In this document: positions 16,500 through 41,527 of the stretch, piece by piece
Numbering within the stretch: position 1 is the first letter of the stretch
How the letters are laid out: each line of letters opens with the position of its first letter
NCBI GenBank assembly: GCA_018335795.1
Contig: JAGXRP010000008.1
Coordinates: 22,766-86,765 of the forward strand
Direction of reading: 5' to 3'
From: Desulfobulbaceae bacterium
GTDB taxonomy: Bacteria > Bacteroidota > Ignavibacteria > Kapaibacteriales > UBA2268
DNA: 64,000 bases
Notes under the pieces: generated by a model
Databases searched by the model: none
What the model was told of the DNA's origin: nothing
Seen by the model: only the letters and a program-made list of their open reading frames with translations
Program-made: the position numbers and the translations under genes

Positions 16500-16772
16500 T
16501 CAGCCCCCTTTGAGCGAATCCGCCCATTGCTTCCACTTTCCGGGAGTATTGCCTACGCTTGCATCGCCTTTGAATCGTACTATAGGCGTTCGGTACAGAT
16601 ACGGGATTTCCAACAATGTCTCGAAGGCATCAAATAAGCGGTGTGCGTAGCCATTTTCTTTGTAATATTTGCCGTCGGTATCAATCAAATCCTCAATATT
16701 TATCTTGCGTAGCACACTTTCTAACTCGCCTTTTGAAAGATTTTTCTCTTCGAGATTAAGCAATGTGTTCAT
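16500..16772 (-). pseudogene. C-terminal part of an ArsC/Spx-family reductase, cut by the island
   Basis: An open frame of 90 codons. From residue 6 on it reads as the C-terminal two thirds of an ArsC-family (thioredoxin-fold) reductase: LSKGELESVLRKINI, then IDTDGKYYKE, then YLYRTPIVRFKG and SVGNTPGKWKQW. The first five codons (MNTLL) come from island DNA; a TAA lies 8 codons upstream, so no longer frame exists. The N-terminal redox motif is missing here and is found at 41,366-41,527. Joining the parts at the 13-bp repeat gives a 118-residue protein of normal family length. The fragment may still be translated but should not be active. Confidence 0.93.
16745..16757. repeat. Left attachment repeat (13 bp)
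   Basis: TCTCTTCGAGATT, identical to 41416-41428. It contains the interrupted palindrome TCTC-TTC-GAGA, as expected for a tyrosine-recombinase crossover site. It encodes the residues NLEE (minus strand) that are shared by both parts of the split ArsC-like gene. Confidence 0.92.
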
Positions 16773-17246
16773 AAGCCCTTGTAATACAACATATTACGAG
16801 TGATTTTTTCATTCTTCCAACATATTTCCAACAAAATTTCTCAAAAGCTAAGTATGTTGTGTTTAAAACGAGTGAAAACTGCAAATGAAGTTGGAAAGAT
16901 TTTCATTTCCAACTTTCACTTTTCTTTCAAAGAACAATCACAATGTTATGCAAAAGTACGAAATGCCGGATTAATAGTGCTATCGTAAGGTGATTTTTCT
17001 ACAGACCGCCATAAATGCCATACATTGAATTTTTACAAATCGAGCCATAGTTAGGCATAGCCTGATATTCTTAACTATGCCTAAAAGTGTGGATTTGGGG
17101 TTGGAAGTTAGCATTTTTGAATCTGAAAAAGAAATACAACTGCAATAGATTTCATTTTTTGCCGTATAATATTTAGTGCAGCAACCACAATTCAGGATAA
17201 TGGCAACAGGGAACTCAAATTTATAAATTTTTGATAAGGATACATT
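16773..17246. other. Gene-free left end of the island, with one hairpin
   Basis: 474 bp with no convincing gene. It holds a perfect 10-bp inverted repeat, TTAGGCATAG at 17051-17060 and CTATGCCTAA at 17075-17084, with a 14-base loop. There is no T-run after it on either strand, so an operator or recombination site is as likely as a terminator. The only ORF of note (16800-16988) has no start context or protein-like pattern. Confidence 0.6.
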
Positions 17247-17552
17247 ATGACCGGAAGTGAATTTAGGGCAATTAGACGTTTTAACAAATTTTCTCAGAGA
17301 ACTATTTCAGCAAAAACTGGGATTTACGTTTCTGACAGTGCAGTCAAAGAAATTGAAAGAGGTAGTAAAGTGCCTCATTTTTTCGTTAAAATTTTATCTT
17401 GGCTAATGGGACTTGATTTGTCTAAAGAAGACATTTTGAGAAAACAGTTAGATGGAATCCCCGAAAAATTTTTTCATGCCAAGATTTGCACTCGGAAGCC
17501 CAAACCTAAATCTGCGGTGATATTTCCACCAACAGGAAGTATTTATGGATGA
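17247..17552 (+). CDS. XRE/Cro-like HTH regulator
   Basis: A 101-residue protein. Residues 4-57 fit a Cro/CI-type helix-turn-helix: FRAIRRFNKFSQRTISAKTG, then SDSAVKEIERGSKVP. The C-terminal third is basic and Pro-rich. An AAGG stands 8 bases before the ATG. As the first gene at the left end of the element it is a candidate controller of its excision or cargo expression. The similarity is weak, so the family call is tentative. Confidence 0.6.
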   Translation: MTGSEFRAIRRFNKFSQRTISAKTGIYVSDSAVKEIERGSKVPHFFVKILSWLMGLDLSKEDILRKQLDGIPEKFFHAKICTRKPKPKSAVIFPPTGSIYG

Positions 17553-17647
17553 AGCCTGAAACAGTACAAAATTCTCTTGTCGTCAAAATCGAATTCAACA
17601 AGAATTCTGAATATAATACAATATACGATTTGTCTTATTCAATTTGA
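17549..17647 (+). CDS. Possible 32-residue peptide coupled to the XRE-like gene
   Basis: An ATG in the ATGA overlap with the upstream stop opens a 32-codon frame (MKPETVQNSLVVKIEFNKNS...). Its stop lies within the loop and right arm of the downstream hairpin. The coupling is the only support; composition is unremarkable. Confidence 0.3.
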   Translation: MKPETVQNSLVVKIEFNKNSEYNTIYDLSYSI

Positions 17648-17663
17648 CAAATCGTATATTTTT
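17620..17663. terminator. Long AT-rich hairpin, likely terminator of the XRE-like operon
   Basis: Perfect 15-bp inverted repeat: left arm 17620-17634 (AATATACGATTTGTC), 11-base loop, right arm 17646-17660, then TTT. The stem is AT-rich with few G-C pairs. It could instead be a protein-binding palindrome. Confidence 0.55.
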
Positions 17664-18112
17664 GTTTCTCGTAAGGAAATCGAAAACGTACTACCAATCT
17701 GTCAATGTTGGGCTTTCGACTTAGCATGTTCTATTCATACTACTTTTTTTTTCTGTTACAAACACAATGAAATCCTAATGAATGAGCTATCTATTATATT
17801 TTCTATAGAGTTATAAACAAGGAATTACTTAGGAATTATAAAGGAAAGAAGTAGGAATTACAAGGATTAGTAACAAACTTAAACTTGAAATATATTTTAT
17901 CTATCAAGGATTTAGATTTAAAATCCTCTTGAATTCCTAAATTCTATACTTTGTAACATTATGTAATATAAAGAACTTATGGGATATTGAAGGAATTTGA
18001 CAATGAAATCCTTGAATAATCCTACGTGCTAAGCCACTGATATACACAGAGATAGCGTTAATTCATCCATGACAAATGGAATTTCACACTCGACTTATTT
18101 TTTTTATTAAGA
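17648..18112. other. Gene-free region with iteron-like AGGAATTA repeats
   Basis: 465 bp between the XRE-like operon and the 3' end of the primase gene. Three exact AGGAATTA copies at 17820, 17831 and 17853 are spaced 11 and 22 bp apart, in helical phase. Related AAGGATT/AATCCTT words in both orientations continue to about 18023. Position beside a P4-type primase makes this a candidate replication origin or primase-binding region (inference). Confidence 0.45.
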
Positions 18113-20317
18113 TTAGTATCGGAGTTTAACCAAATTTGTTACAAATGTATGTTTACCACCTTTTATGCGAGAATGTTTGTTTACAGTGTTGACAATCCCT
18201 CCTTGAGTAGTAAGATAATATGATTTTAAAAATTTAGTGAATGCATTAGAACTTTTTATTTCAATACTTCTATCCCATTTCCAATGTTCTCCTCCAAAAT
18301 TCTCATTCATATAACTTTGGTATTCTGTAAACATTACCGATAGTAATGGTAAGTGTTTTGAATTATTATCGTAAATATAATTATTTTCAAGGAAGGTTTC
18401 GATTATTGAACGTTCCCCCATTAACAATTCAATAGTCTTATTCCCTATTTCTGTTTCTGTAAATTCGCGTTTTATCATCAATCGTTTCAGTCCGGCAATT
18501 GCCAAATTGAAAATTCCTGAAAGTTCGGACATGAAAACATTCTCAATTCCGGCATCCGGTTTTTCGATTTCGGCTTCAAATGGCAGAATTACAATCCGTT
18601 TGGCAATTGGAATGATGTTTTCATTTTCGGGCAAACTTGGTAACTGATTCATAGCAAATATTATTTTCGCAACATTCGTAAAAGAAACAGCATCGCCAAA
18701 TTTAACGTCTGATGTTTGACGGTCTCCACCTGTCAATTGCTTTAGTGTAGCAACGTTAACAAGTTTGTTGTGTAAATCGCCGGACGTTGCAAGTCTTTTT
18801 CCCATTAAACGAGTTTTGTAAAATTTTTCTCTCAAATCTCTTGGGTCTATATCCGAAAAGGTGAATTGGTTCCCAACCAAATTTTCAATTATTCTTACGC
18901 AAGTTCCCTTACCGTTTCGACCTTTCGAGCCTGTAAACCAAAACATTTTCTGAAATGGAAAATCGCCACGTAAACAGTAACCTGCTATTTCAAAAAACAA
19001 ATCACTCCAACCCTCAATAATTTTCTTGCCTTTGGTCATGGAATACATTTCTATGGATTCTTTGAATGTAGGGCAATCTGCATTTTTATTAAAATCATAA
19101 TCAGTTTTGTAGGTGAAGTAATGTTCGGGATTGTGTGGCTCAGATATGAAAGTGTCAAGATTGAAAGCACAGTTTTTGAGATTGACCAGGTTCGGGATTG
19201 CATTGAATTTTTCATTATGCACAAAGAATTTCGGTAAGTAGGGTATTAATTTTACCAGGCTATCAATAGTTGAGAATTTCACCGATGACTGACGTAGCCA
19301 ATCAAAAATAAGATGTCCAACTCCTCTATCAGAAATTTCGTGCCAATAACCCTCCTTGTATATGAAATAATGATGATTTTTCTTAATTTCTGTTGTGCAT
19401 ATAATATGTTTTTCAGCAAGAACATTCAACACTTCTGATGCAATTAGCTTGTTATCCTCAGTATATATACGTGCTTGAATTTCTTCTAAGTCATTGTCGC
19501 TAAATCCTTTCACACGTTCTTTGAGTGTTTTCATAGATTTTACATCTTCATGGTACGTTCTTGCGTTCCCTGCAATGATTTTCAATTCTTCAACAGTATG
19601 ATTATTCAGCCAATCGGAAACATCTTCTTTGGGATTCAAACTATCTAATTCAATCAATCTAATCGAGTACGCTATATCTTGTAAGTTTTTGATAATATCT
19701 TTTGCGTGGTTTAGTCCGGCTTCGTCATTGTCAGGGATTATGACAACATTCTGATTACGGAAATACTCGTTATAGCTTTTTTTCCATTTCCCTGCACCCA
19801 TAGGTGAAGTAGTTGCTATGACTCCACGTTTAATGAGATTGTCAGCATCTTTTTCACCCTCAACGATGTAAATATCATCACAATTCGGATTCGCTTTTAA
19901 GATTGAAACAAGATTGTACGGATATAGTTTTACACCCTTTAACGTCCAAATCTCTTGACCACCTTTAAATGCAGACTGCATGAACGTCTTTTTACCCTTG
20001 TCAAGGTAACGATACGTCCTATGTGCCAAAACTCCCTTTTCATCGGTATAGTCATACGTAGCAATTAACTGTTTGCCTTTTGGTGCATCAATGAACAAAT
20101 CCTTAAACGTTAGCCCTACTGCATCGAGTATTGACTTGGTTTCACATCCGGCATGACAGTAGAGTAATATCGTACCATCGCTTTCTTCTGTAATTGACAA
20201 ACTCGCTGTGCCGTCATCATGAGCCGGACAGGTATATTTATCTTTCTCAGTTTGGCTTTTTTTGAACTTTGATAGAACACTATCAAATTTCTGCGATGCT
20301 TGATTTTCGTTCTTCAT
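18113..20317 (-). CDS. P4-type primase-helicase (zinc finger, TOPRIM, SF3 helicase)
   Basis: A 734-residue replication protein. Residues 30-58 form a CHC2-like zinc site (C30, H33, C54, C58). Residues ~148-200 are a TOPRIM domain with VEGEKDAD (152-159) and DNDEA (196-200). Residues ~380-620 form a D5/P4-type superfamily 3 helicase with Walker A GSKGRNGKGT (463-472), a TSGDLHNKL segment and an arginine-bearing AKRIVILPF. Such proteins prime and unwind DNA of phages, satellites and plasmids; here it implies that the element can replicate after excision. It overlaps the HTH gene upstream by 4 bp, so the two form one operon. Confidence 0.88.
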   Translation of the reverse strand: MKNENQASQKFDSVLSKFKKSQTEKDKYTCPAHDDGTASLSITEESDGTILLYCHAGCETKSILDAVGLTFKDLFIDAPKGKQLIATYDYTDEKGVLAHRTYRYLDKGKKTFMQSAFKGGQEIWTLKGVKLYPYNLVSILKANPNCDDIYIVEGEKDADNLIKRGVIATTSPMGAGKWKKSYNEYFRNQNVVIIPDNDEAGLNHAKDIIKNLQDIAYSIRLIELDSLNPKEDVSDWLNNHTVEELKIIAGNARTYHEDVKSMKTLKERVKGFSDNDLEEIQARIYTEDNKLIASEVLNVLAEKHIICTTEIKKNHHYFIYKEGYWHEISDRGVGHLIFDWLRQSSVKFSTIDSLVKLIPYLPKFFVHNEKFNAIPNLVNLKNCAFNLDTFISEPHNPEHYFTYKTDYDFNKNADCPTFKESIEMYSMTKGKKIIEGWSDLFFEIAGYCLRGDFPFQKMFWFTGSKGRNGKGTCVRIIENLVGNQFTFSDIDPRDLREKFYKTRLMGKRLATSGDLHNKLVNVATLKQLTGGDRQTSDVKFGDAVSFTNVAKIIFAMNQLPSLPENENIIPIAKRIVILPFEAEIEKPDAGIENVFMSELSGIFNLAIAGLKRLMIKREFTETEIGNKTIELLMGERSIIETFLENNYIYDNNSKHLPLLSVMFTEYQSYMNENFGGEHWKWDRSIEIKSSNAFTKFLKSYYLTTQGGIVNTVNKHSRIKGGKHTFVTNLVKLRY

Positions 20318-20646
20318 TTCTTTGCTCCCTTATCAATGAAAGATTGCACAGAGTTGAAATCGCCAAGATTGATTTTATTGATATGACTCATAATGTCATT
20401 TAAATCAAAATATACCATTTTACCAATCTTGAAGTATGGTATTTTGCCGTCCCTTCGCCACTTATATATGGTTGTTCGACTTACACCTAATATTTCAATT
20501 AGCTTACTGGTGCTTATTAGAGTCTTCTCTGTATCAGGCTGAACCGGTTGGTTCGATTGTTCATGGCTCTTCTCATAGTTCTTGAAGAACTCGTTAAGTA
20601 GCTCTATCAGTTTTGATTCACTGATTAATAAAAGATCATTCATCAT
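20314..20646 (-). CDS. Excisionase/AlpA-like helix-turn-helix protein
   Basis: A 110-residue protein whose residues ~42-95 are a MerR/excisionase-type HTH (HTH_17 family): LISTSKLIEILGVSRTTIYK, then WRRDGKIPYFKIGKMVYF. A GGAG lies 8 bases before the ATG. Proteins of this kind commonly sit next to the replication genes of Bacteroidota elements and act as excisionases or activators. It is translationally coupled to the primase-helicase (4-bp overlap) and probably works with the integrase at the right end. Confidence 0.82.
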   Translation of the reverse strand: MMNDLLLISESKLIELLNEFFKNYEKSHEQSNQPVQPDTEKTLISTSKLIEILGVSRTTIYKWRRDGKIPYFKIGKMVYFDLNDIMSHINKINLGDFNSVQSFIDKGAKK

Positions 20647-20757: not shown

Positions 20758-21471
20758 TTACTTCTGTTCAGAAATCAATTGTTTGATTATCTCAGACAGT
20801 TCACTTACCACTCCCAAAATCATTTCGAGATGATGAGTTGATCTTTCTCCGTTATAATTACTTGCTGATTCCTCAAATTGCTTATGTGCAATGGGTTTTT
20901 TGATATTAGTATCACTCAAGCCCGTGAGTGCATAACCAATTTTGCCAAGCGAGTTATCACCTAATTTTCCAATAAATTTGTATTTTACCAAAATATGAAT
21001 CAACATACCTATTTCTTCACCAGTCAATTTTGGTTTAAAATTTTTATCAATAGTGATATTTTTGATTATTAAGTCATTTTTTATGATTTCGGCATGTTCC
21101 AATTGAGTATTGGTTTTTTCATTAATTAGTGAATAATTTTTAAACTGTTTCAGTTTATGAAGAAAATACAGATAACTACAAAGTAGTAATTCTTCATTTT
21201 TATAGATGACTAGATATTCATCATCATTGAAGGCTTCGTTTTTATTGAACGCCTTGAATCTCTTTGGATACCTTTTACGAAGAATTTCATAGTTTTCATC
21301 ATATTCTTTATTAACGAGATTAATTGCTTCACTGGGCGATAGAGTGCTTAAGGAATCCTCAAAATGTTTTCGTTTGAGTCTATACTTAGCAGCTTTAGTT
21401 TTAGAATTAGCCGCTTTTTCCTTTTCAGGTTCGCCAAGATAATCCCCAACATAGTGGTCATTTATAGCCAT
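20758..21471 (-). CDS. Element-encoded protein of unknown function
   Basis: A 237-residue soluble protein. A Lys-rich helical N-terminus (KTKAAKYRLKRKHFE) is followed by mostly helical sequence; the segment LTGEEIGMLIHILVKYKFIG vaguely recalls C-terminal parts of RteC-like regulators in Bacteroidota elements, but I cannot confirm this. It lies upstream of the HTH-primase operon, on the same strand, with a 111-bp gap that holds a palindromic operator candidate. Confidence 0.7.
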   Translation of the reverse strand: MAINDHYVGDYLGEPEKEKAANSKTKAAKYRLKRKHFEDSLSTLSPSEAINLVNKEYDENYEILRKRYPKRFKAFNKNEAFNDDEYLVIYKNEELLLCSYLYFLHKLKQFKNYSLINEKTNTQLEHAEIIKNDLIIKNITIDKNFKPKLTGEEIGMLIHILVKYKFIGKLGDNSLGKIGYALTGLSDTNIKKPIAHKQFEESASNYNGERSTHHLEMILGVVSELSEIIKQLISEQK

Positions 21472-21801: not shown

Positions 21802-24800
21802 ATGAGTACTTTTATAACAAATAATGGTCAAAAAGACCTAAAAAGTGTATTGAATTTGCTTGTAACAGCTTCCAGTGAGTTGAAATTTCTGGTCGGATTT
21901 TTTTATTTCTCTGGAATTAGCGAGCTTTATGAATCGTTAAAGCAGAATCCTGAGGTTTCACTAAAAATACTTGTTGGTCTCAATGTAGATATTTACAACC
22001 ATAGACTCATAGAAACCGATTATGAAAGTTTGAAAGATTCCGATATAATAGACTCATTCTTCGGTTCTATCAAAAACTCTTTTACTGGTGAGAACTTTGA
22101 TAATCAGTCGTTTTATGAACAAGTTCAATTCTTTGTTGAAAAATTAAAGAGTAAAAAGCTACAAATTCGCAAAACTGAAAAGCCTAATCATGCAAAACTG
22201 TACTTGTTTAGAGCGAGTAGTGACCAGGGATATAGTAATTCATGCTTAATAACTGGGAGCAGTAATTTGACCAGAGCAGGATTGAGTAGTCAGCCTGAGT
22301 TTAATGTTCAAATTATGGATTATGGATTTCCCGAAGCAGAACAATACTTTGAAGATTTATGGCTAACAGCGATTAAAATTACAGAAGATGATGTCCGGAA
22401 AATGAAGTTGATTGAAGTTATCGAAAATGATACTCTTGTTAGGTCAATATCACCGTATGAAGCATATTGCTACATCATTAAATGCTATGCTGAATCATAC
22501 GGAAAACGGAAATCTGATGATAGGATACCAATTCTATTGAAGAAAAATGATTACTTAGTTTATTCTTATCAGATTGATGCTATTGAACAGGCTCTTTCTA
22601 TTATTGAAATAAACAGAGGTGTTTTAATTGCTGATGTTGTAGGGCTTGGAAAGTCAATTATCGCTGCGTGTATAGGAAATTCTTTGGGTAAAAGGGGGCT
22701 GATTATATGTCCCCCTGGTTTGATTGGAGACGATAATAAAACTCAAGGATGGAGCAAGTACAAGGAAGAATTTGAACTCTATGGTTGGGAAATTCGTTCT
22801 TCAGGTGATTTATCTAATGTCGTCAAATTCTTAAAAGCTAATCCTGACAAATTTGAAGTTGTCATTGTTGACGAAGTTCATAAGTTTAGAAATCAAGATA
22901 CTGAAAATTACGAACTTCTCATGAATATATGTAGAAACAAGATTGTTATTCTACTTACCGCTACACCTTTCAACAATTCTCCGGCAGACATTTTATCTTT
23001 GTTGAAATTATTCATTGCTCCCAAAAAATCCACTATCACACTTGATGATAATTTAGAAAAAAAGTTTTCAAGATTGGAATATGATTTCCAAAGATTGTCA
23101 TTTATTGTGAAGAATTTCAATTCCAAAGATTTTGATAAAAAGAGCAAAGCGGAGAGATACTACAAAGACTACTTCGGTTCAGATGTAATTATTCTCTCCT
23201 ATGTCAAGAAGTACATTCAAACCATTGCCAAGGAAATCCGAGATATTGTTGAGCCTGTTACAATTCGTAGAAATAGACTTGACTTGACGACTCACAACAT
23301 TTACAAAAATGAAATTAAAGATTTATCAAAAGTAAAGAATCCGGAAGAATACTTCTTTGAACTAACGAAAGAACAATCTGAATTCTACGACCTGATTATC
23401 CAATCGTATTTTGCTGAACCTGAGAGCGGTGGCAGATTCAATGGTGCTATTTATAGACCTTTTGAATATGATGAAGGAATTGTTGGTAAGTCATACGATG
23501 AGATTGAAAAGTTACAGAAGGATAAAAACCGTGAATTGATTCAGCAACGTAACTTATTCGATATTATGCGAAGAATGATTGTCAAGAGGTTCGAAAGCTC
23601 TTTTGGTGCATTCGAGCAGACAATCAAGAATTTCATCAATATTTATGAAAAAGTCTTGAGATTTATAAGCAAACGTGGAAACGGAAATCCACTGAAGGGT
23701 GAGTATATTCTCGATAGAAAATTGCTCGAAAAGATTGTTGATTTTATGGATAACGAAGACAATACTTCAAGTGTCGAGAGATTGATTGATGAATATGTGC
23801 AGAAAATTGAGCAGGGAGTATATCCAAAATCTCACAAAATTTACGAAGTCAGCAAATTCAAACAAAAAGAACTCTTTATTGAACATATCAATAGCGATAT
23901 TGCAATGTTAGAGGAAATTCTCGACAAACTCAATGATTACAAACTAATAGATAATGATCCCAAGTCCAAGGCTGTTTTTGCAAAGTTTGATTCGATTTTT
24001 TCGGCAACAAGAAATCCCCATGAACCGATTCGCAAGATATTGATATTTTCGGAGTATGCAGATACTGTAAAGTTTATAACCGAAAAGTTAAAATCATTCA
24101 AATCTAAACAGAATTATTCGGGACGTACTCTAACGGTTCATGGTACGATTAGCAAAGCCACCCGTGATATTATCGAAAATAATTTCAATGCTTCTGCTAA
24201 AAATCCTTCCGATGACTACGATATTATCATCACTACCGATAAACTTAGCGAAGGTTTCAACCTAAACAGAGCCGGTATAGTCATTAATTACGATATACCA
24301 TGGAATCCTGTCCGTGTTATTCAGCGAGTTGGGCGTATCAATCGGATTGGTAAGAAAGTATTTGATGAATTGATGATTGCAAATTTATTTCCTACTGAAA
24401 AAGGTGCTGATAAAGTACGCTCAAGAGAAATTGCCGCAAATAAAATGTTTATGATTCATAATACTCTTGGTGAGGATACAAAAATATTCAACGCCGACGA
24501 AGAGCCCACTCCTTCAAAAATGTATGACAAAATCAAACAAAATCCTGATGATAACCGTGAAATCAACATTTATACAAAAATTTCAAATCTTTATGAAGAA
24601 TTAAAGTTACGGAGTCCTGAGGTTTTTGCCAAACTTGACAATATGCCTCCAAGAATCAAAACAGGTAAAATTTTCAATGATGATGAAATGCTGCTTTTTG
24701 TCAAAAAGAATAGGATGTATGTCAAATCCTTCAAAAAAGTTGATGGCAAAATTGAAAGTAATGTCCCATTGCTTGAAGATGTTATCGAAAAAATTATATG

Positions 24801-25218
24801 TCTGCCCGAAACTCCTGCAATAGCGATTGATGAGGAATTTTGGGAAATCTACGAAACTGCCAAAATGTTCAAGGACGATAAAGCAAATCCTATCAAAGAA
24901 ATTAGTATCGAGAATAAAGCTCTGCAAAATCTCAGAGTTCTCATTAACTACAAATCAAATATACCAAATAGTACCCTCAATTTCATGAAATCTTTGCGTG
25001 AAGATATTACTGATTACGGTACTCTCCCCGATTTCACTCTCAGACGTATTGCAAATCTTGATACCGACAAAATACACGATTGTATAGAAGTAATTAACCA
25101 AATCTGTAAAGACATAGGTAGCGATTACCTCGATAAAATTCGTATAATCAGGAATACAGTTGATAGAGAAATTATTATTGCTTACATGAACAGAACCAAC
25201 GAAAAGGAAATTCGATGA
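21802..25218 (+). CDS. PLD-like nuclease domain fused to SNF2-type helicase
   Basis: A 1,138-residue protein. The N-terminal ~190 residues are phospholipase-D-like, with HAKLYLF at 130 and the downstream GSSNLTRAGL motif near 152. A superfamily 2 SNF2-like motor follows: Walker A-like DVVGLGKS near 277, the DEVH box near 356, LTATPFNN near 390, and the C-terminal motif VI QRVGRINRIGK near 845. The last ~250 residues are unassigned. PLD domains of this kind act as nucleases in restriction and repair systems. The next gene, a DNA methyltransferase, overlaps by 4 bp (ATGA), so together they probably form a restriction-like defence pair: motor and nuclease here, modification there. Targets and cofactors are not evident from sequence. 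Confidence 0.88.
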   Translation: MSTFITNNGQKDLKSVLNLLVTASSELKFLVGFFYFSGISELYESLKQNPEVSLKILVGLNVDIYNHRLIETDYESLKDSDIIDSFFGSIKNSFTGENFDNQSFYEQVQFFVEKLKSKKLQIRKTEKPNHAKLYLFRASSDQGYSNSCLITGSSNLTRAGLSSQPEFNVQIMDYGFPEAEQYFEDLWLTAIKITEDDVRKMKLIEVIENDTLVRSISPYEAYCYIIKCYAESYGKRKSDDRIPILLKKNDYLVYSYQIDAIEQALSIIEINRGVLIADVVGLGKSIIAACIGNSLGKRGLIICPPGLIGDDNKTQGWSKYKEEFELYGWEIRSSGDLSNVVKFLKANPDKFEVVIVDEVHKFRNQDTENYELLMNICRNKIVILLTATPFNNSPADILSLLKLFIAPKKSTITLDDNLEKKFSRLEYDFQRLSFIVKNFNSKDFDKKSKAERYYKDYFGSDVIILSYVKKYIQTIAKEIRDIVEPVTIRRNRLDLTTHNIYKNEIKDLSKVKNPEEYFFELTKEQSEFYDLIIQSYFAEPESGGRFNGAIYRPFEYDEGIVGKSYDEIEKLQKDKNRELIQQRNLFDIMRRMIVKRFESSFGAFEQTIKNFINIYEKVLRFISKRGNGNPLKGEYILDRKLLEKIVDFMDNEDNTSSVERLIDEYVQKIEQGVYPKSHKIYEVSKFKQKELFIEHINSDIAMLEEILDKLNDYKLIDNDPKSKAVFAKFDSIFSATRNPHEPIRKILIFSEYADTVKFITEKLKSFKSKQNYSGRTLTVHGTISKATRDIIENNFNASAKNPSDDYDIIITTDKLSEGFNLNRAGIVINYDIPWNPVRVIQRVGRINRIGKKVFDELMIANLFPTEKGADKVRSREIAANKMFMIHNTLGEDTKIFNADEEPTPSKMYDKIKQNPDDNREINIYTKISNLYEELKLRSPEVFAKLDNMPPRIKTGKIFNDDEMLLFVKKNRMYVKSFKKVDGKIESNVPLLEDVIEKIICLPETPAIAIDEEFWEIYETAKMFKDDKANPIKEISIENKALQNLRVLINYKSNIPNSTLNFMKSLREDITDYGTLPDFTLRRIANLDTDKIHDCIEVINQICKDIGSDYLDKIRIIRNTVDREIIIAYMNRTNEKEIR

Positions 25219-28680: not shown

Positions 28681-29577
28681 ATGAAAAAGATTGAATTCCA
28701 AAAAGCACCAAAAAGTAAAGAGGAACAACTTGAAATTCTGAAAAATCGAGGTATGGTAGTTAAAAACGAAGAACGAGCCTTGTTTTTGTTGGAACATATT
28801 AGTTATTACAGGCTTTCGGGTTATTGGTTTGAAAACTATATTGATTGGGAAACTAAGATGTTTCGTAACGGTACTTCATTTGAAGATTCATTTGATAAGT
28901 ATTGTTTTGATAAAGAGTTTAGGAAGTTAGTCCTATCAGAGCTTGAAAAAATTGAAGTTTCTATTCGAGCAAGTATTATCAACACATTAAGCATAAAATA
29001 TTCATCTCCATTCTGGTTTCAAAACGTGAACTTGTTTAAAGATGTGACAAAGCATACAAAATTACTTGAACAACTAGATAAGGATTTCTTTAGAAGTGAT
29101 GAACTCTTTGTACAAAGTTTCAAAAAGAAGTATATTGAAAAATTACCACCAAGCTGGATAATACTTGAAATCACATCTTTTGGAACTTTATCTAAGATCT
29201 TTGAAAATTTAAAACCTTATGACAAACGTTTGATAGCAAATAAGTTTGAATTACCTGAAAAAGTATTCGTTTCATGGCTTCACACCTTAATTTATATCAG
29301 GAATGTTTGTGCTCATCATACGAGATTGTGGAATAGAAATCTTACAATAAGCCCAAAATTATTAAACAATGAAACTAATAATTGGTCTAAGGAATATGTG
29401 GTGAATAACAAAAGCTATTTTGTAGTTCTGATTATAAGGTATATCTTGAAAACAATTAATCCTAAGTCAACATTCAAAGACAAATTAGTTGAATTATTCA
29501 AAAACTATCCGATGATTAATCCCAACTTAATGGGTTTCTCGGAAAATTGGGAACAAGAACAAATATGGCAGTCATGA
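28681..29577 (+). CDS. Abi_2 (AbiD/AbiF-like) abortive-infection protein, HEPN type
   Basis: A 298-residue protein of the Abi_2 family. The N-terminal block HISYYRLSGYWF (residues 39-50) is the family hallmark, and the C-terminal IRNVCAHHTRLWNR has the HEPN RNase motif R-x4-H (R207, H212). HEPN abortive-infection proteins usually cleave RNA to stop growth of infected cells. It sits between two copies of the methyltransferase 3' end, together with the divergent candidate RNA, so it looks like a discrete module inserted in the restriction-like operon. The ATG at 28681 agrees with the family N-terminus. Confidence 0.88.
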   Translation: MKKIEFQKAPKSKEEQLEILKNRGMVVKNEERALFLLEHISYYRLSGYWFENYIDWETKMFRNGTSFEDSFDKYCFDKEFRKLVLSELEKIEVSIRASIINTLSIKYSSPFWFQNVNLFKDVTKHTKLLEQLDKDFFRSDELFVQSFKKKYIEKLPPSWIILEITSFGTLSKIFENLKPYDKRLIANKFELPEKVFVSWLHTLIYIRNVCAHHTRLWNRNLTISPKLLNNETNNWSKEYVVNNKSYFVVLIIRYILKTINPKSTFKDKLVELFKNYPMINPNLMGFSENWEQEQIWQS

Positions 29578-30014: not shown

Positions 30015-30035
30015 CATTTTAAAAGGAGAATTTTT

Positions 30036-31283: not shown

Positions 31284-31294
31284 GGAGCAATGAG

Positions 31295-32875: not shown

Positions 32876-32876
32876 A

Positions 32877-34178
32877 ATGAGAACATTAATAATTTTATCA
32901 GTTATACTTTTTGTAACAATTAGATTGTTGGCTCAAGAGCCTGAACCCGACCCATTAGTGTGGAAAAAGCACATTGGGGGAATTGTACGTGCGGTGACAT
33001 TCAGCCCTGACGGTGAATTTATTTATGTGGCTGCAACTGGCTTTAAACCAATGAAACTATTGACGGAGACAGGCGATATTGTTATGGAATATGAGGGACT
33101 GGTGGTAAAGCGAGATGTACAAGTTGAGATGCTTGATATATCAAGAGACGGCAGAAGGTTATTCGTTGCTGATTCCGGCAATACACTTTTCGTGTGGGAT
33201 ACACAAACGGGAGCATTACTTCATACCTTAGATGCAGGATATGAGGAATGGAGAGCTAAATGGTATCATTCTATAACTGTTTCGGAGAATTACATTGCTG
33301 CTTTAGTTGCTTATAGTTTACAGCCGGAAACGACTTACCCGGTTGGTGGAGAAATACATATTTGGGATGTAAACACTTATGAGAAAGTCAAAGTGATTGA
33401 ACCATCTTATTCACTTATAAAGATCAAATTCTCAGATGACGATAGATTCTTGGCAAAGCTTGTAGGGGAACCAGACCACAATGACGAAACAGGAACTGTT
33501 TTACTCAACTCAGGCACTTGGGATACATTTGGTTCTTTTTGGGGACATGAGTATGGTGTTAATTACTGTGCTTTTTCACCTGATGGAACTATGATGGCTA
33601 CTTGTAGTTGGGGCTATCAAGTGAAAGTTTGGGATGTTGCTGAAAGAAAACTTATTACTGATATTGAGACGCATTGGTATCAAGCAGAATCCGTGATTTT
33701 TACTGATAATGAACATATATTTTCTGGGAATGGTGTTAGTAAAATTTTCAATGATTTACAGGGGTGGGAATTACAAAATTATAAAGAAGTATTTAATTAC
33801 GAAAGTATACTTCCAAGAACAATTGATTATAACCTAATAATGAATAAAATATGTTGTGCGAGGTCTAATGATATTGTTTTACTCAAACCGATAAACACGA
33901 CAAGCATTTATGAACCCTTCAAACAAAGCCTTACGGCATCGCCTAATCCTACAAACAATTCTATAAAAGTAAGTTTCAATTTACCTAAATCGGGGTTGAC
34001 AAACGTTGAAATCAGCAATGTTAACTCAAGAATGATACGCAAACTGCACACCGGTTTTCTCGAATCCGGACAACACAATTTTGATTGGGACACGAAAGCA
34101 ATTCCCGCAGGTGTTTACTTTTGTAAGATTTCTTCAAAAGAATTTAACGAATCTGTTAAAATTATTGTGGAGAAATGA
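32877..34178 (+). CDS. Secreted WD40-like protein with T9SS sorting domain (paralogue 3)
   Basis: A 433-residue protein, a close tandem copy of paralogue 2: the EPDPLVWKKHIGG start of the mature part, the blades and the T9SS domain all recur, and blocks such as 33590-33643 are identical to 32280-32333 at the base level. The start is ATG 32877; the longer frame that opens at 32703 only reads through the preceding T9SS domain in a wrong frame. It has a signal peptide ending LLAQ. The next gene starts 1 base after its stop. Recent duplication or gene conversion is likely. Confidence 0.87.
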   Translation: MRTLIILSVILFVTIRLLAQEPEPDPLVWKKHIGGIVRAVTFSPDGEFIYVAATGFKPMKLLTETGDIVMEYEGLVVKRDVQVEMLDISRDGRRLFVADSGNTLFVWDTQTGALLHTLDAGYEEWRAKWYHSITVSENYIAALVAYSLQPETTYPVGGEIHIWDVNTYEKVKVIEPSYSLIKIKFSDDDRFLAKLVGEPDHNDETGTVLLNSGTWDTFGSFWGHEYGVNYCAFSPDGTMMATCSWGYQVKVWDVAERKLITDIETHWYQAESVIFTDNEHIFSGNGVSKIFNDLQGWELQNYKEVFNYESILPRTIDYNLIMNKICCARSNDIVLLKPINTTSIYEPFKQSLTASPNPTNNSIKVSFNLPKSGLTNVEISNVNSRMIRKLHTGFLESGQHNFDWDTKAIPAGVYFCKISSKEFNESVKIIVEK

Positions 34179-34179
34179 G

Positions 34180-37100
34180 ATGAAAACATTATTAATTTTA
34201 TCAGCGTTACTTTTAGTTGCAATTAATTTGTCTGCACAAGACAGCGAACCAAGTCCCTTACATTTTTCATACATTGCAAATGGTCAGAACTACACAAACC
34301 AAGCATTGAATAAAGAACATTTTCAACAAAATAATTTTATAATCAGTACGCAATGGGAAGGACATTCTCGAATGTTGCAAGCATTGAAATTCAATATGAA
34401 TCATGGCAAAAGACCAAGAAATGATTGGAGTTCAAATTCAGACCGAGTGAGTTCGTTCCCGAATATAGCTGATTCAGGTTATATGATGAAATATATATGG
34501 TCAGGTGACCAACACGAATGTCGTGGCTTTCAATATAGTCCAACTTTGTTCATACCTGAAAACCGGCAAGGAGAATTTATTTATCAAGCCGCTGATAACA
34601 GGCGTTCTGTTTTCGGCTTTAGCTATATTCGAGATTCGGCTCAAGTAATCAATAACCCGAGCAGTACAATTTACAAATTATATACTGACTCGACTGATTA
34701 CATTGATTCAGTAGTTCTTGGGAAAACGTGGATTAACGATAAATTCTATGTCTTTGGTAACCCGGGATTGCTAAACTACGACCATACAACAGGTGGCACA
34801 AGATGGATATTTTCAATCAATTTGCGTCGTTTGAATATAGAGGAATCAGCTAACGACGACGATGTAGTCTTGTCAATTAAATTACCTTACGTTAGTAAAG
34901 TAAATGATACTACATTTGTAGATGGATTAATTGATTTCAGCTACCCTCCAAAAACGTCTTTAAATGATACAATAAGATTGAAATATGTAGAAGACAGAGG
35001 CTTTGCATTAAAAATGACAGATTTGCCTGTTATTGGCAATACAATATATATTACAAATAGAATGTTACCCGATAACACTTTCTTTGCAAACACCGGAAGA
35101 CAGGATATTACGATAAATGCTGAATTTATTTGTGATCATGAAATAAACCCGTTATTAAAAGCTAAAAAAGACGCTCCTAATATCCAGAACATTGACATAG
35201 AAGTGAAATATCACGGAAATAGAGACATAGGAATCAATTATTGCCGTATAGCAACTCCGGCTGGTTATGACTTTGTAACAGGGAAAAGTGATAGCTTGAT
35301 TCAAGCATTTTATCAGGCTCATATTGATTCTATTCAAAGTCATAATTATGAAATATTCGGTTTTTATGGTCGAGATGAATTCCCAGAGCATTATTACATG
35401 GAACAACGCTACAAAGCCAAATTATTGAATTACTGTACTGTAAGCGAAGGAGCCGGTGGTGACCATACAGACCATTTTATGCATCTTATTCAGCCGATGC
35501 ACATGTGGACAGGAAGTATGAGTTTAAAAGCAGATAATCCGGCTCCGTTTATAAATAAAAATGCAGAAATTACTACAGGTCATAGATTAAATTTTCCAAA
35601 AAGAGGTTATCAAGGGTATGATTGGAAAGTAGAACATAGAGCTTCCGAATTTTCTGAAGTAGAATATCCGAGAGATACTTTACGTTCTCACTATGAACTT
35701 TACCATAACCCGGGTTATCATAATAAAGACTATTGGAATTGGTTACGTAGTGATACATTAGAAAATGTTCAAATAACTATGGATGGACATAATTTAATAG
35801 GAAATGAATTTTATTTATATATTTGTGGTTCAAATTCTTATAGCGGTTTACAAGGATTTATGGAGCTTAGTAATTATAATTCATTCCATAAGTTTCCTAA
35901 TCTGATTTATAGTGAAAACCCATGGTGGGGTAATAGTTATCCAACTGCTAATTTTAATGTGATTAATTATGGTACATCAATAATGCCTAAATTTGAATTA
36001 CATAATTCAAGATCTCAGACAGGTGAGGAAGTAAGATGGTCTCTTTGGTCAAGACTTATTATGGGAGCAAAAGGATTGTTCTACGATGCCTGGAATGATT
36101 TAATGGAATTAAACACGGATTATGTAGACAGAAATCTTGGTTTTTTAAATCATTATGACTCAACCCAGAATTCGAGATATAATACGGCTACTTTCGATGA
36201 AATGATTTTTGGAAACGACCATATTTTTGGGGTTGATTTTATCCCTGAACAGGATACATCAACCTTAACTCACAATTTTATTATTCGAGATTCAACGGCA
36301 GAAAATTGGGGAGTACCTGTAAATAGATTATATTGTGGCAGAAAATCCCCCAAAATCGAAATGTGGAAAATACACTCATGGATTCGTAATAATGAGGAAG
36401 TTCTGATGAATTTACGTCTCGTTGCAGCTTATTCAAAAGGTGCCAGAATTTGGAGAAGCCATGATACGAGTAGATTTGAAAGTAATATTCTCGATAAATA
36501 CTTCAAATTAGATAATCGTTTGATTATTCCAACAGAGACACTACACAATACTCTTGTTTCTGATATAGGAATAAAAACTTGCCCTCTTAGTAGAATAGAC
36601 GAAGTAACCGGAGAATCTGAATACGAAGCGTGGGACTCGTCTTTTGTAGATTTGACATTACATAGACTTGCATCTGATAGCAATGGTATAAATAATGTTT
36701 TTTATTTCGGTATCCAAAACCGCCGTACAGACCCATTGGTCTATTTTACTGAGGATACATCCGATAAACACATGTTGTTTTTATCTTCTTCCGAATTCGA
36801 TGACCTTTGTGATAATGGCGGTGTAAATCCAATGCGACCCAACGGAGATAACTATTCAGCATCTGTATGGCAGGAATATTATTGGAAACGTCTTGGCTGC
36901 CGTGAAATATCAATAAATTTTAATTATAAATTTAGTGACAATCCGGACGATGTCGCAATATTGAGAGTCAGCGAATTAAGAACTGAAAATGACAGTACCG
37001 GTTATTGGGAGTGGCCCTGGTGGAAACAAGAGAGGTATAATAACTATGTTAATGTTACGATTAAATCGAATGAAACTCTGACTTTAAACTATTTACCGGG

Positions 37101-39501
37101 TGAAGGGAAGATGTTTAAAGTTGAAATAGTTGGTAGTGCACCAGTCATTGGAGAGCTTGCTAACTCCAATCAAACAAAGTTGATTGCATATCCTAAGAAC
37201 CAATCAGGGAATCAGGATTTTACCGGCAAAGACGACACAGTTTTTTATCATATGGTTTATCACAGAAAAGACCCTATAACTGAAAAATACAATGTTTACT
37301 ATCGCCGAAGTTTGAATCCATACACTCATGATTTAGGTTCTAAAGGGATTCAATGGGGACAGGAGTATCAGCTTGCTCATAGTTTGGTACTTTATCGGAA
37401 TTTACATTTGCCGGGATTAGAGACTGATTCAATGTTAGTTACAGTAGGTAATGGATGTGAATGTAAATATCCATCAATAGTTGCACGTTGGGATGAAGCA
37501 AATAATCGTGCAAACATCTATGCTTTGTTTTCATGTAGCCAACCATCATATACAGATACGCCACGAGTATTTATAGTGGAGAAGGTTTTTGATATAAACA
37601 GCAACCCGACACCACAATTACTATCACCAATTGGCTATGCTTATGCCGGCAACAATGATGGCTCTGAAATTGACCGTTGGGGTTTGTGTAGTATTAATGC
37701 CTCTTTAACCGGGAATTTTTATGCTTGGAATGATAGTATCAAGGGCATAACAACAGGTTTTAAAGAACCTCATGATAGAGGTTTTGTAACAAATAAATTA
37801 GATTTAAAATTTAATACGAATATTAGTTGGAAAGCAGGTGGGCCATCTTTAAATACTTATTCTGGTATTCAGATTTATGATAAACATGCTGCAGTAGCTT
37901 GGCATGAGGAATCGTCACCAGGTGGATGGGGTTGGCTACAAAGTCGTATTTATTATTCAATGCTGAATCTTGACTCAAATAATAATATTTATAAACATGT
38001 TCCGGATAGTTTCTCGACAGGAGAGATATATTTTCATGATGCCCAAATGTCGAATGGCATGGCTTGGTTACACCCATCTGAACCATTTTCACTTTTCAAA
38101 AATCCAATATTATATAGGACAATAGAAGGAAAATTAGATGAACATTTAGATATAGAAATATTTGGTATTGGAGATAGGATATATTGGGAAGGGAAACGAC
38201 ATTTGGGCAGTAGAAATGACATTTTCTTAAAGATGTTGGATTTAGGTAACGCGAGTAATTGGAATTGTCTTTATCCGTTGAAAATATTTGAACCTTCCGT
38301 AAGTTTGGGTCATCCGAATTTAAGTCAAGGTTCTTTTTTTAGAGGTGATTCTTTATATCCGTTTAATTTTTCAGATAGTGCGATTGTAGTAAATTTTGTC
38401 TCATATGACACAACGCTTACTAAACCTGATTATAATTCTAAGATATATCAAATTGATCATGATTTTTGGAGAATTTTCCAGAAAAACGGATTGTGGCCTG
38501 GAATACAGCCTGATACAACTTTTGTTGATATTGAGCCTATGTTAACAGAACTAGGATTGGGAATTTACCCTCATCTTGCAAGATTGCCTGTAGTAAATCG
38601 TGAAGAAGATTGGGCGATAAACCAAAGAGTTTTTGAAAGTGCTGGGCAAAAAATCAACACAAGTTATCAATTTTTCTTACCTAAAGGGTTTACTGAGCAA
38701 AAGAAAATCTATCCTATATTAAGAATATTTGATAGTGAATCAGGCGAAGAATCACAAATGTCTCAATTTCATATTGTTGATTATAGCTCCAGTCAGTTTG
38801 CAAAAATACCCAAATTATACTCACAAATACATGATGAAAAGGGTGTGAAATTCCTTGATACCGCAGTGACTTCATGGTTCAGACTACATGATTTTAGTCA
38901 ATTGTCATTCTTTGTTTCTGATTACAAGTCGGATTTGTTTGATGTTGAAATTGAAAGGAAGTCTGATCGTGAAACTTTCGCAATGCCGGTGTCCCACATT
39001 CGGAATAAGGAAAGGACATTCAACAAAGTCAATCTAATCAATGGTGGAAAGGAACAGTATAGAATTAGGTATATACGCAAAAACAATCACACTTGGTTTA
39101 TGCCAGAAGTTATGATTTCTAATGAAATTGATTTTGAAACGAATTTCGACAGAATTAATGATAAGGACTTTGAAAGAAACGCTTTTATTGAAGAACAAAC
39201 GGTTGACTTGGGATTACCGGAATATGAGTATAATATTTTGGCATATCCTAATCCAAGTGGAGATAAAGTAAATCTGATGATTCGATATAATTCAAACGAT
39301 GAATCAAGGAATTTCCCTGTCCAGATAATTGTAACAAATCTAATAGGTGAAGAGATATTCAAACACGATTGGTTAGTTAATAAACAGTATCTAATTGACT
39401 TTTCTGACAAGATGCCAGGTGTGTACTATATCAATGCGTTGATATTGGATAGTGACGCAGGTAATTCGGTTGTAAGGAAGCAAATATCGATTATAAGATA
39501 G
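34180..39501 (+). CDS. Very large secreted T9SS protein, 1,773 residues
   Basis: The start ATG 34180 gives a signal peptide (MKTLLILSALLLVAINLSAQ) like those of the preceding genes; the frame upstream of it is not protein-like. The C-terminal ~90 residues are a T9SS type A sorting domain (AYPNPSGDKVNLMIRY, ending GVYYINALIL). Between them no family is certain: residues ~1-560 look beta-rich, a segment near residue 629 (GAKGLFYDAWNDLMEL) recalls glycan-active barrel proteins only loosely, and residues ~1050-1450 look like sialidase- or propeller-type beta sheet. It ends a four-gene, tightly spaced operon of exported proteins. Its size and aromatic richness suggest a surface adhesin or enzyme. 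Confidence 0.8.
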   Translation: MKTLLILSALLLVAINLSAQDSEPSPLHFSYIANGQNYTNQALNKEHFQQNNFIISTQWEGHSRMLQALKFNMNHGKRPRNDWSSNSDRVSSFPNIADSGYMMKYIWSGDQHECRGFQYSPTLFIPENRQGEFIYQAADNRRSVFGFSYIRDSAQVINNPSSTIYKLYTDSTDYIDSVVLGKTWINDKFYVFGNPGLLNYDHTTGGTRWIFSINLRRLNIEESANDDDVVLSIKLPYVSKVNDTTFVDGLIDFSYPPKTSLNDTIRLKYVEDRGFALKMTDLPVIGNTIYITNRMLPDNTFFANTGRQDITINAEFICDHEINPLLKAKKDAPNIQNIDIEVKYHGNRDIGINYCRIATPAGYDFVTGKSDSLIQAFYQAHIDSIQSHNYEIFGFYGRDEFPEHYYMEQRYKAKLLNYCTVSEGAGGDHTDHFMHLIQPMHMWTGSMSLKADNPAPFINKNAEITTGHRLNFPKRGYQGYDWKVEHRASEFSEVEYPRDTLRSHYELYHNPGYHNKDYWNWLRSDTLENVQITMDGHNLIGNEFYLYICGSNSYSGLQGFMELSNYNSFHKFPNLIYSENPWWGNSYPTANFNVINYGTSIMPKFELHNSRSQTGEEVRWSLWSRLIMGAKGLFYDAWNDLMELNTDYVDRNLGFLNHYDSTQNSRYNTATFDEMIFGNDHIFGVDFIPEQDTSTLTHNFIIRDSTAENWGVPVNRLYCGRKSPKIEMWKIHSWIRNNEEVLMNLRLVAAYSKGARIWRSHDTSRFESNILDKYFKLDNRLIIPTETLHNTLVSDIGIKTCPLSRIDEVTGESEYEAWDSSFVDLTLHRLASDSNGINNVFYFGIQNRRTDPLVYFTEDTSDKHMLFLSSSEFDDLCDNGGVNPMRPNGDNYSASVWQEYYWKRLGCREISINFNYKFSDNPDDVAILRVSELRTENDSTGYWEWPWWKQERYNNYVNVTIKSNETLTLNYLPGEGKMFKVEIVGSAPVIGELANSNQTKLIAYPKNQSGNQDFTGKDDTVFYHMVYHRKDPITEKYNVYYRRSLNPYTHDLGSKGIQWGQEYQLAHSLVLYRNLHLPGLETDSMLVTVGNGCECKYPSIVARWDEANNRANIYALFSCSQPSYTDTPRVFIVEKVFDINSNPTPQLLSPIGYAYAGNNDGSEIDRWGLCSINASLTGNFYAWNDSIKGITTGFKEPHDRGFVTNKLDLKFNTNISWKAGGPSLNTYSGIQIYDKHAAVAWHEESSPGGWGWLQSRIYYSMLNLDSNNNIYKHVPDSFSTGEIYFHDAQMSNGMAWLHPSEPFSLFKNPILYRTIEGKLDEHLDIEIFGIGDRIYWEGKRHLGSRNDIFLKMLDLGNASNWNCLYPLKIFEPSVSLGHPNLSQGSFFRGDSLYPFNFSDSAIVVNFVSYDTTLTKPDYNSKIYQIDHDFWRIFQKNGLWPGIQPDTTFVDIEPMLTELGLGIYPHLARLPVVNREEDWAINQRVFESAGQKINTSYQFFLPKGFTEQKKIYPILRIFDSESGEESQMSQFHIVDYSSSQFAKIPKLYSQIHDEKGVKFLDTAVTSWFRLHDFSQLSFFVSDYKSDLFDVEIERKSDRETFAMPVSHIRNKERTFNKVNLINGGKEQYRIRYIRKNNHTWFMPEVMISNEIDFETNFDRINDKDFERNAFIEEQTVDLGLPEYEYNILAYPNPSGDKVNLMIRYNSNDESRNFPVQIIVTNLIGEEIFKHDWLVNKQYLIDFSDKMPGVYYINALILDSDAGNSVVRKQISIIR

Positions 39502-39591: not shown

Positions 39592-39610
39592 AGTCTAACA
39601 GCATGTCTCA

Positions 39611-39967: not shown

Positions 39968-39978
39968 GAAATCGTGAT

Positions 39979-41217
39979 TTATATCTTATCCCAAGTCCTG
40001 CCCATTTCAAATGCTACTACTTTTTCTGTAATGTTGACGTACTTTTTAAAAGTTTTGTAATCTTTATGCCCGGACATCGCCATAATCGCTTCATGTACCA
40101 TTCCTTTTTCAAGAGAAATAGTTATGAATGTTCTCCGAGCAGTGTGAGTCGTGACTAATTCATAAAGTGGCAAATACTCATCATCCCTTTGCCCGCCTTT
40201 GATTGTAGTTATGCGGCATTTCCTGTCCAAACCTGCAAATTGGAATAGTTCTTTAACAAATTTATTACTCTTCTGGTTAGTTATGACCGGCAAAGGCTTA
40301 GGCTCGTTTTTGTGCTTTTCAAGGATTGCTAATGCAAATTCATTCAAGGGAAGTTTTATGATGTCATTCGTTTTTTGAGTTCGCAACTGCCAGTAGTTTC
40401 CGTTTATATCCTCTCTCCTAATCTTGAAAATATCTGAGAATCTTTGTCCGGTGAAGCAAGCAAAACAGAATATGTCACGGACATTGTCCAACTTGGTGTT
40501 ACTTTTCAGGTCTATATCATACAATGTGATTAATTCATCACGTGTTAGCACAATCGGAGAGTCCTCGATTGTCTTTGTCTTGAACTTCTTATACTCTAAT
40601 TTCTTGTTATAACCCCTTTCAGTTGCCCAATTGAGAAATGATTTAAGCTGTATTATCCGCTTGTGAAACGTATTATTTGTCAAGTTAACGAGGTTAAGAC
40701 TATAATCACAGAATTTGTCAAAGAAATTTAGGTCAATAATTTCAAACGTGAGTCTGCTTTCATACATTTTCTCGAAATTTGCTAATTGATTCATAAAAGT
40801 TTGGTATGATACGAGTGTCCCTGACTTCACCTCATTTTTTTTAGCTATCAAGTATAGCTCAAAGACTTCAATCACGGATGGTTTTTTGGATTCGCTATTC
40901 TTAAACATCATTTCCAAGATGTAATTTTTTAACGATACAGGATGGATTGTATCGTTATCACTTTGATATTTCGTAACGAGAGTGATTACCCTATCTTTAA
41001 ACAGCGTTAAATACTTATTTGATTCAGTAGAGTTTGAATGTCCGGCTCGAATTGATTGTTTCTTATCATTCCAATACTTTGGCTCAATCAGAAGATTTGT
41101 ATTCAAATATATCGTTTTTTGAGGTACAACACCTCGGAGGTAGCAAATAACCCTTTTCTCATTTTTACGATTCAATTTGCTGTCGAGATAGAAATTGATA
41201 TTCATATTCATATTCAT
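39979..41217 (-). CDS. Tyrosine site-specific recombinase (integrase)
   Basis: A 412-residue phage-integrase-family protein of the Bacteroidota type. The N-terminal ~100 residues are an arm-binding-like domain, residues ~110-205 a SAM-like core-binding domain, and residues ~220-405 the catalytic domain with R259 (TGQRFSD), H358-x-x-R361 (HTARR), H384 (SGHKD) and nucleophile Y393 (KKYVNI). It presumably cuts within the 13-bp repeat shared by the island ends, 199 bp from its start. All catalytic residues are intact, so the element may still be mobile. Confidence 0.95.
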   Translation of the reverse strand: MNMNMNINFYLDSKLNRKNEKRVICYLRGVVPQKTIYLNTNLLIEPKYWNDKKQSIRAGHSNSTESNKYLTLFKDRVITLVTKYQSDNDTIHPVSLKNYILEMMFKNSESKKPSVIEVFELYLIAKKNEVKSGTLVSYQTFMNQLANFEKMYESRLTFEIIDLNFFDKFCDYSLNLVNLTNNTFHKRIIQLKSFLNWATERGYNKKLEYKKFKTKTIEDSPIVLTRDELITLYDIDLKSNTKLDNVRDIFCFACFTGQRFSDIFKIRREDINGNYWQLRTQKTNDIIKLPLNEFALAILEKHKNEPKPLPVITNQKSNKFVKELFQFAGLDRKCRITTIKGGQRDDEYLPLYELVTTHTARRTFITISLEKGMVHEAIMAMSGHKDYKTFKKYVNITEKVVAFEMGRTWDKI

Positions 41218-41243
41218 ACTTTTTTTCGTTAAACAACACGATA

Positions 41244-41274
41244 CAAAAGTACAAACTTATACCAAACATTCCAA
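41244..41274 (-). promoter_or_regulatory. Candidate integrase promoter
   Basis: On the minus strand TACTTTTG (41244-41251) with TTG (41272-41274) 20 bases upstream; the first base of the -33 box differs (GTTG). Start would be near 41238, about 21 bases before the integrase ATG. The -7 box is identical to that of the candidate small RNA. Confidence 0.5.
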
Positions 41275-41365
41275 CACATTTCCAACTTTTTTTATGAATA
41301 TTATCAATAATCAGCTAAACATTAGTTTACAAACAAACTTTATTAATAGCTGTTAATACGGTTAT

Positions 41366-41527
41366 TCACGGTTGTTTGCAATAATCTATGGTAACTAATG
41401 TCAACAAGGTTCTAATCTCTTCGAGATTGATAAATTGAATAGCAATATTCCGCTCTTTGAAGTAGCGAATCGCTTTTTGTGTTTCGCGACATTTTTTAGT
41501 ACCGAATATTTGAATTATTACCGACAT
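41366..41527 (-). pseudogene. N-terminal part of the split ArsC/Spx-family reductase
   Basis: A 53-codon frame starting MSVIIQIFGTKKCRETQKAI, with the thioredoxin-fold beta strand and the CxxT redox motif (C13-R-E-T16) of the ArsC/Spx family, running to QFINLEE. After the 13-bp repeat it continues for 16 residues of island sequence (IRTLLTLV...) and stops. Together with 16,500-16,757 it makes a complete 118-residue gene. It is too short for an automated ORF call and easy to miss. Confidence 0.93.
41416..41428. repeat. Right attachment repeat (13 bp)
   Basis: TCTCTTCGAGATT, identical to 16745-16757. It lies at codons 34-38 of the split gene, at the boundary where the host frame ends. Confidence 0.92.

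Follow-up and report, generated by a model that had tools for sequence, protein, structure and literature searches.

We conclude with high confidence that a 24,671-bp island interrupts codons 34–38 of an ArsC-like gene in a Kapaibacteria-type Bacteroidota genome, that this gene is whole in the two other genomes of the genus, and that the island was likely inserted by its own tyrosine integrase at a shared 13-bp core. The window, by which we mean the whole analyzed stretch of 64,000 nucleotides, lies on contig JAGXRP010000008.1 of assembly GCA_018335795.1. A first-pass annotation, made from the DNA letters without database searches, had proposed that an integrative element of about 24.7 kb split an ArsC/Spx-family gene there; the approximate size was sound, and most of the proposal held on closer analysis.

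Junctions and the joined reading frame

The 13-mer TCTCTTCGAGATT has two exact copies in the window, both on the plus strand (Table 1), and its reverse complement has none; the distance between the copies, 24,671 bp, is the island size. The minus-strand frame from position 41527 reads MSVIIQIFGTKKCRETQKAIRYFKERNIAIQFINLEE, then departs from ArsC as IRTLLTLVTIDYCKQP and a stop. At the other end, the frame 16772–16500 reads MNTLL, followed by NLEEKNLSK and onward to its stop. The five residues ahead of NLEEK, MNTLL, are island-encoded and not part of the ArsC gene. Read on the minus strand, the gene runs into the right core copy with its 5′ part and continues from the left copy in the same phase. 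Joining the flanks on one core copy gives 357 bases, in frame, encoding an ArsC-family protein of 118 residues, in agreement with the coordinates and phase first assigned to the two fragments. A protein search of the genome recovered the 3′ part at 86% identity over residues 19–118 of the joined query, a range that includes island DNA.

Chance sharing of the core was ruled out by a control in which 0 of up to 1000 random 100 × 80-bp pairs drawn from the window shared a 13-mer (pairs less than 200 bases apart were skipped). A tRNA target at the insertion was also rejected, as ARAGORN returned no tRNA or tmRNA gene in the window.

Empty sites in two congeners

The joined protein is matched in 21 of 54 family genomes, and both remaining genomes of the genus, G045 (96% identity) and G046 (97%), carry the whole gene. 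Against the joined flanks, each congener aligns as a single block (2522 and 2520 bp, 87% identity) that runs from sodB across ArsC and reaches the photolyase gene. When the unmodified window is used instead, each aligns as two blocks whose overlap is exactly the 13-bp core, which is identical in G045 and has one base different in G046. The photolyase gene, a 113-aa gene, and sodB adjoin the ArsC-like gene in both congeners, so that the uninterrupted gene beside sodB and photolyase anticipated by the first-pass annotation is seen in two of two, with the same neighbors. The opposite pattern, relatives with the same fragments but no integrase, was not encountered, as the congeners do not have the two fragments. 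The DUF4296 label proposed for the 113-aa neighbor could not be confirmed (Table 1). At E ≤ 0.001 the island's integrase is matched in neither G045 nor G046. Both carry other genes of the Phage_integrase family (2 and 4 matches), and this family gives 8 matches in the window's genome.

These alignments bear directly on whether the assembly wrongly joined the island to the gene halves. The genome is a draft of 82 contigs with an estimated contamination of 3.09%, yet a single gene is cut at an identical 13 bp at either junction, its halves are exactly complementary, and two congeners show collinear outer flanks, which a chance join would not achieve at both ends. We consider such an artefact barely credible.

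No other split ArsC gene was found in 54 family, 391 class, and 395 phylum genomes (overlapping sets). The joined protein has matches in 21, 102, and 113 of these genomes, respectively, and complementary halves occur only in the window's genome; some distant ArsC matches cover the query in part and lie within frames of normal length. Two candidates were counted as neither split nor whole: one matches residues 2–41 only, with a run of N next to the match (G026), and the match in the other stops at a contig end (G324).

Integrase and recombination features

The island's integrase lies at the right end and is transcribed inward. The frame begins at 41217, which leaves 198 bp to the core, in keeping with its earlier placement near the right junction. 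Residues R257, K280, H356, R359, and Y391, which we take to be catalytic, are invariant or nearly so. The heptamer TTCCAAC, a motif chosen post hoc upon inspection of the island ends, occurs 7 times in a 700-bp stretch spanning the predicted circle junction, with copies to either side of the core, versus a maximum of 3 and a mean of 0.16 across 6098 overlapping windows of the same length elsewhere. These repeats are likely arm sites. Inverted arms around the core extend 7 bp (around TTC) in the predicted circle and 4 bp in the empty site, and the GC content is 33.9% inside the island and 38.6% and 39.5% outside. In the mechanism we propose, the integrase would recombine the island's copy of the core with the identical copy in the gene, and excision would restore the exact reading frame.

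The interrupted protein

On profile scores, the target can be assigned no further than ArsC-like. The joined protein narrowly exceeds the Pfam ArsC cut-off (PF03960, 25.3 bits versus 24), while the 90-aa frame alone falls below it at 18.7 bits. The match covers profile positions 1–77 of 79, and the joined protein also aligns over its full length with ArsC-family proteins; together with the two uninterrupted congener genes, this alignment upholds the proposal that an integrative element split an ArsC-family gene. No NCBIfam subfamily cut-off is passed by the joined protein. The 'Spx/MgsR family' model TIGR01617 gives E 4.2e-10 yet only 39.9 bits against a cut-off of 75.05, the arsenate reductase model TIGR00014 gives 27 bits against 106.05, and the Spx model NF002459 gives 21.8 bits against 123. 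The 'Spx' label in the first-pass annotation was therefore too specific. Among solved structures, chain 2kok, which bears the name arsenate reductase, is nearest (E 0.0021).

The genome holds no second ArsC copy detectable with the joined protein, which matches only its own two halves. A search of the genome with PF03960 gave nothing at E ≤ 0.001; it also missed both halves, so a very distant ArsC copy could escape it too. No replacement gene end carried by the island was found either. Because neither a spare copy nor a replacement end was found, the split protein has likely lost its function while the island is resident. The cysteine motif CxxT falls in the 5′ part and the remaining fold in the 3′ part, and because these lie on separate frames with no substitute found, the enzyme would be inactive with the island in place. 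The gene is thus predicted to be off unless the island excises, because the island sits inside a gene that is whole in the sister species.

Age of the insertion and possible control by excision

Of the codon changes unique to the split-gene branch, 14 are synonymous and 2 nonsynonymous (5′ part 3:1, 3′ part 11:1). The corresponding ratios on the congener branches are 7:1 for G045 and 14:0 for G046, and at 3 codons no two of the three genomes agree. Had the whole split-gene branch evolved without constraint, about 89 nonsynonymous changes should have accumulated; the unconstrained period is capped at roughly 7% of the branch (2 changes) or 12% (5, with all ambiguous codons counted), a rough estimate drawn from three genomes. 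The stop of the split gene is shifted by two codons. Because the gene halves show little decay, we infer that the insertion either happened late relative to the species split or is often reversed; the data fit both alike.

One alternative is regulated gene integrity, in which residence acts as a switch and need for the ArsC-like protein triggers excision and restores the gene. The island is a predicted candidate because the gene is broken without replacement, and the combination of no replacement end and no second ArsC is, in other islands, usually read in this way (PMC10111431). Both gene halves are still under constraint; the integrase gene lies downstream of the ArsC 5′ part and is read in the same direction, and a simple scan detected no terminator-like site in the intervening DNA. 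However, the two congeners manage without the island, a recent insertion accounts for the same facts, and the integrase probably has its own promoter, judged by a motif upstream of it. We regard excision on demand as improbable.

A narrower version invokes redox stress. Because the integrase is on the same strand with no terminator-like site found in between, the ArsC promoter may feed the integrase gene after insertion. Stress acting on this promoter, beside sodB, would then make integrase; excision would restore the enzyme and turn the integrase off, and the switch would cancel itself. In the divergent ArsC/sodB intergenic region (41528–41668), which is likely regulatory, the three genomes share an identical block of about 58 bp. 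A promoter scan lent the switch no support, with 2 sites versus 4.4 expected from shuffles. The sequence TAnnTTTG, which we take to be the Bacteroidota promoter motif, fits two places before the integrase; the promoter that the integrase probably owns weighs against the switch, as does the fact that both sister species are without the island. We give this scheme very little credence; if true, it would represent a self-cancelling gene switch in a Kapaibacteria-type lineage.

Relatives of the island and choice of site

Contig C47 of the same genome harbors a second island built on this core module (approximately 7620–20130; L151, L152). Its primase, 101-aa protein, and HTH_17 protein are 71%, 88%, and 47% identical to those of the window, and it has an adjoining PLD-type helicase frame (1137 aa) and type IIG-type enzyme (1277 aa), 25% and 33% identical to their counterparts. 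The helicase and type IIG pair looks like recurring cargo; the 237-aa protein of the window's island has no match in the C47 island. In G046, a remnant of the module (C10:1–2092; L153) retains the 101-aa protein at 82% identity and pieces of the primase and HTH_17 genes, and its end abuts the 3′ end of a tmRNA gene at 1732–2092. The left ends track that of the window up to within about 15 bp of the core for the remnant and about 60 bp for C47. No integrase was found with either: the G046 contig begins inside the remnant, the right end of the C47 island was not found, and C47:1–40000 has no match to the window's integrase. The stretches around the integrases on C66, C34, and C43 match 0 of 10 island proteins.

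The integrase has three close relatives (86%, 82%, and a truncated one at 76%), and the next is 50% identical among the best 120 of 736 matches listed. Among 123 order genomes and 395 phylum genomes, the latter with at most 4 candidates scored per genome, no integrase exceeds 43% identity at E ≤ 1e-90; 34 of 54 family genomes have a match. Related integrase loci were collected from named genomes (80 kept of 88), 6 viral contigs, and the family genomes, with flanks of 1.5 kb for family genomes and up to 10 kb for the others. Except for the window's own, no fetched locus has an ArsC match beside the integrase. Of 105 loci with more than 60 bases of upstream sequence, 4 have a tRNA gene in the first 1.5 kb upstream; this is a set that includes the window's own and a few duplicates and a count that excludes tmRNA, which was not sought. 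No clear split gene was seen upstream among the reading frames listed for 20 loci.

These comparisons raise the question of whether the ArsC-like gene is a secondary site, not the preferred target, used when the usual site was absent or filled. The tmRNA 3′ end abutted by the G046 remnant would suggest such a usual site, and the lack of replacement sequence for ArsC, of other split ArsC genes in the 54, 391, and 395 genomes searched, and of related integrase loci beside ArsC is in line with it. By contrast, the cores at both ends are identical over 13 bp, the island core and the tmRNA end have at most 6 bases in common when the same strand is compared (the opposite strand gives a longer match, but within island DNA), and the remnant's integrase, absent from its contig, may be a different enzyme. 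We hold a secondary site to be a doubtful, if serious, alternative.

Insertion by the island's own integrase at the shared core remains our preferred reading, and a few observations weigh against it. The 2 nonsynonymous changes, versus 1 and 0 in the congeners, and the moved stop could be early decay, although the numbers are small. The single-base difference in G046 means that the core sequence varies within the genus.

Gene content of the island

From the left core, the island comprises a repeat-rich end, the 101-aa HTH-like protein, primase, HTH_17 protein, 237-aa protein, helicase, type IIG enzyme, AbiD, the WD40 frames, the 1806-aa frame, and the integrase (Table 1).

Table 1. Coordinates of the split gene, its junctions, and island and neighboring features in the window
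Feature	Position	Strand	Remarks
Left core copy TCTCTTCGAGATT	16745..16757	+	exact match
Right core copy TCTCTTCGAGATT	41416..41428	+	exact match
ArsC-like gene, 3′ part	16500..16757	-	codons 34-118 including core; open frame 16500-16772, first five codons island DNA
ArsC-like gene, 5′ part with CxxT motif	41416..41527	-	codons 1-37 and one base; open frame continues to 41366 in island DNA
Tyrosine integrase	39979..41217	-	Arm-DNA-bind_5, SAM_5, and catalytic domains, all over Pfam cut-offs
Left TTCCAAC cluster	16816..17107	five, both orientations	predicted integrase arm sites
Right TTCCAAC pair	41269..41286	+	predicted integrase arm sites
101-aa HTH-like protein	17247..17552	+	HTH_19 below cut-off; likely regulator; 88% identical copy in the genome's second island
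P4-type primase	18113..20317	-	Toprim, D5_N, DUF5906; TIGR01613 127.3 bits versus cut-off 108.7
HTH_17 protein, excisionase-like	20314..20646	-	TIGR01764 28.5 bits, just under cut-off 28.8; phrog_66 1.6e-10
237-aa protein	20758..21471	-	without family match
PLD-SNF2 helicase	21802..25218	+	likely anti-phage defense
Type IIG restriction enzyme-methyltransferase	25215..28583	+	422.1 bits; likely defense; 4-base overlap with helicase frame
AbiD / Abi_2 protein	28681..29577	+	252.4 bits; likely abortive-infection defense
Three WD40-type frames	29937-31283, 31556-32875, 32703-34178	+	T9SS sorting domain match in first two
1806-aa frame, secreted type	34081..39501	+	Por_Secre_tail 25 bits versus cut-off 27
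113-aa neighbor gene	16158-16499		no Pfam match at E ≤ 0.01; 91-93% conserved in both congeners

Domain scans covered 11 island frames in Pfam and 6 in PHROGs, leaving out the frame 32703–34178 and small frames. Among these, no virion, packaging, or capsid-redirecting gene was matched. Relaxase and conjugation genes likewise had no match among the 11 Pfam-scanned frames or with NCBIfam; oriT alone was not sought. Of the traits of P4- or PICI-type phage satellites, the P4-type primase is present and a packaging or capsid-redirecting match is absent among the scanned frames. Because no relaxase, conjugation, or virion gene was found in these frames, the island likely needs a helper phage or conjugative element to move. 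NBU elements are small and carry primase and excisionase-like genes, as this island does. Among 5.8 billion proteins, the 237-aa protein matched itself and two shorter relatives (148 aa at 99% and 139 aa at 70%).

The WD40-type cargo proteins are members of a family that has several copies per genome in this genus, with 8, 10, and 6 matches in the window's genome, G045, and G046, and the best copy elsewhere is 73–74% identical. The first approximately 450 residues of the 1806-aa frame are 80–87% identical to shorter host proteins. The multi-copy family and these host matches suggest that the WD40-type and 1806-aa cargo was taken from host lineages. A dispersed short repeat (L152:150–300), with about 30 to 50 matching places in each of the three genomes, occurs a few bases beyond the end of six WD40-type genes, and one copy follows sodB at 42268–42311.

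Comparison with known systems

The first-pass annotation considered integration into a coding sequence unusual. Published data do not bear this out: of 1,757,053 mapped islands, 43.4% lie in coding sequences versus 33.8% in tRNA or tmRNA genes, in a survey whose authors expect some false positives (PMC12424338). Breaking a gene without replacement is the less common form. The attP site usually brings a replacement for the part cut off, and exceptions can mostly be understood as regulated gene integrity (PMC10111431). In the open-licence literature, we found no report of an island splitting an ArsC-family gene. The kind of insertion is thus already known; the novelty lies in its precise site, in the lineage, and in an ArsC-like gene being the broken target.

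The case provides a base-pair-exact insertion site and two natural empty sites for an integrase of Kapaibacteria-type Bacteroidota, a group for which a literature search combining the Kapaibacteria name with mobile elements and integrase turned up only Cas1 work. Because the island breaks a redox-family gene for which no spare part was found, it also makes a clean test case. Should excision prove to be regulated, the island would belong among the gene switches built from mobile DNA; otherwise, the case represents a simple recent gene loss by an island with defense-like cargo.

Known gene-interrupting elements (PMC12424338; PMC10111431) share with this one an integrase-bearing island in a coding sequence, no replacement found, and a frame restored upon precise exit. 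They differ in that the target here is ArsC-like, the genome is of Kapaibacteria type, and excision and its control are predicted. In Bacillus subtilis, SP-beta in spsM and skin in sigK also split coding genes that precise excision mends (PMC13228054). Their excision in sporulation is established as active lysogeny, whereas here it is predicted; SP-beta is moreover a prophage, while no virion gene was found among the frames scanned in this island. The IntCTnDOT group and NBU1-type elements resemble it in having a Bacteroidota tyrosine integrase with an arm-binding domain and differ in that no relaxase was found among its scanned frames (PMC8138268). A Vibrio cholerae island likewise occupies a chromosomal coding gene, recA, but brings a divergent recA as a substitute (PMC4405046); no substitute was found here. 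The Pseudomonas aeruginosa prophage pp3 likewise has its attachment site in an ArsC-family gene (PMC5367828). It is located at that gene's 5′ end and does not alter the protein sequence, whereas here the gene is cut at codons 34–38.

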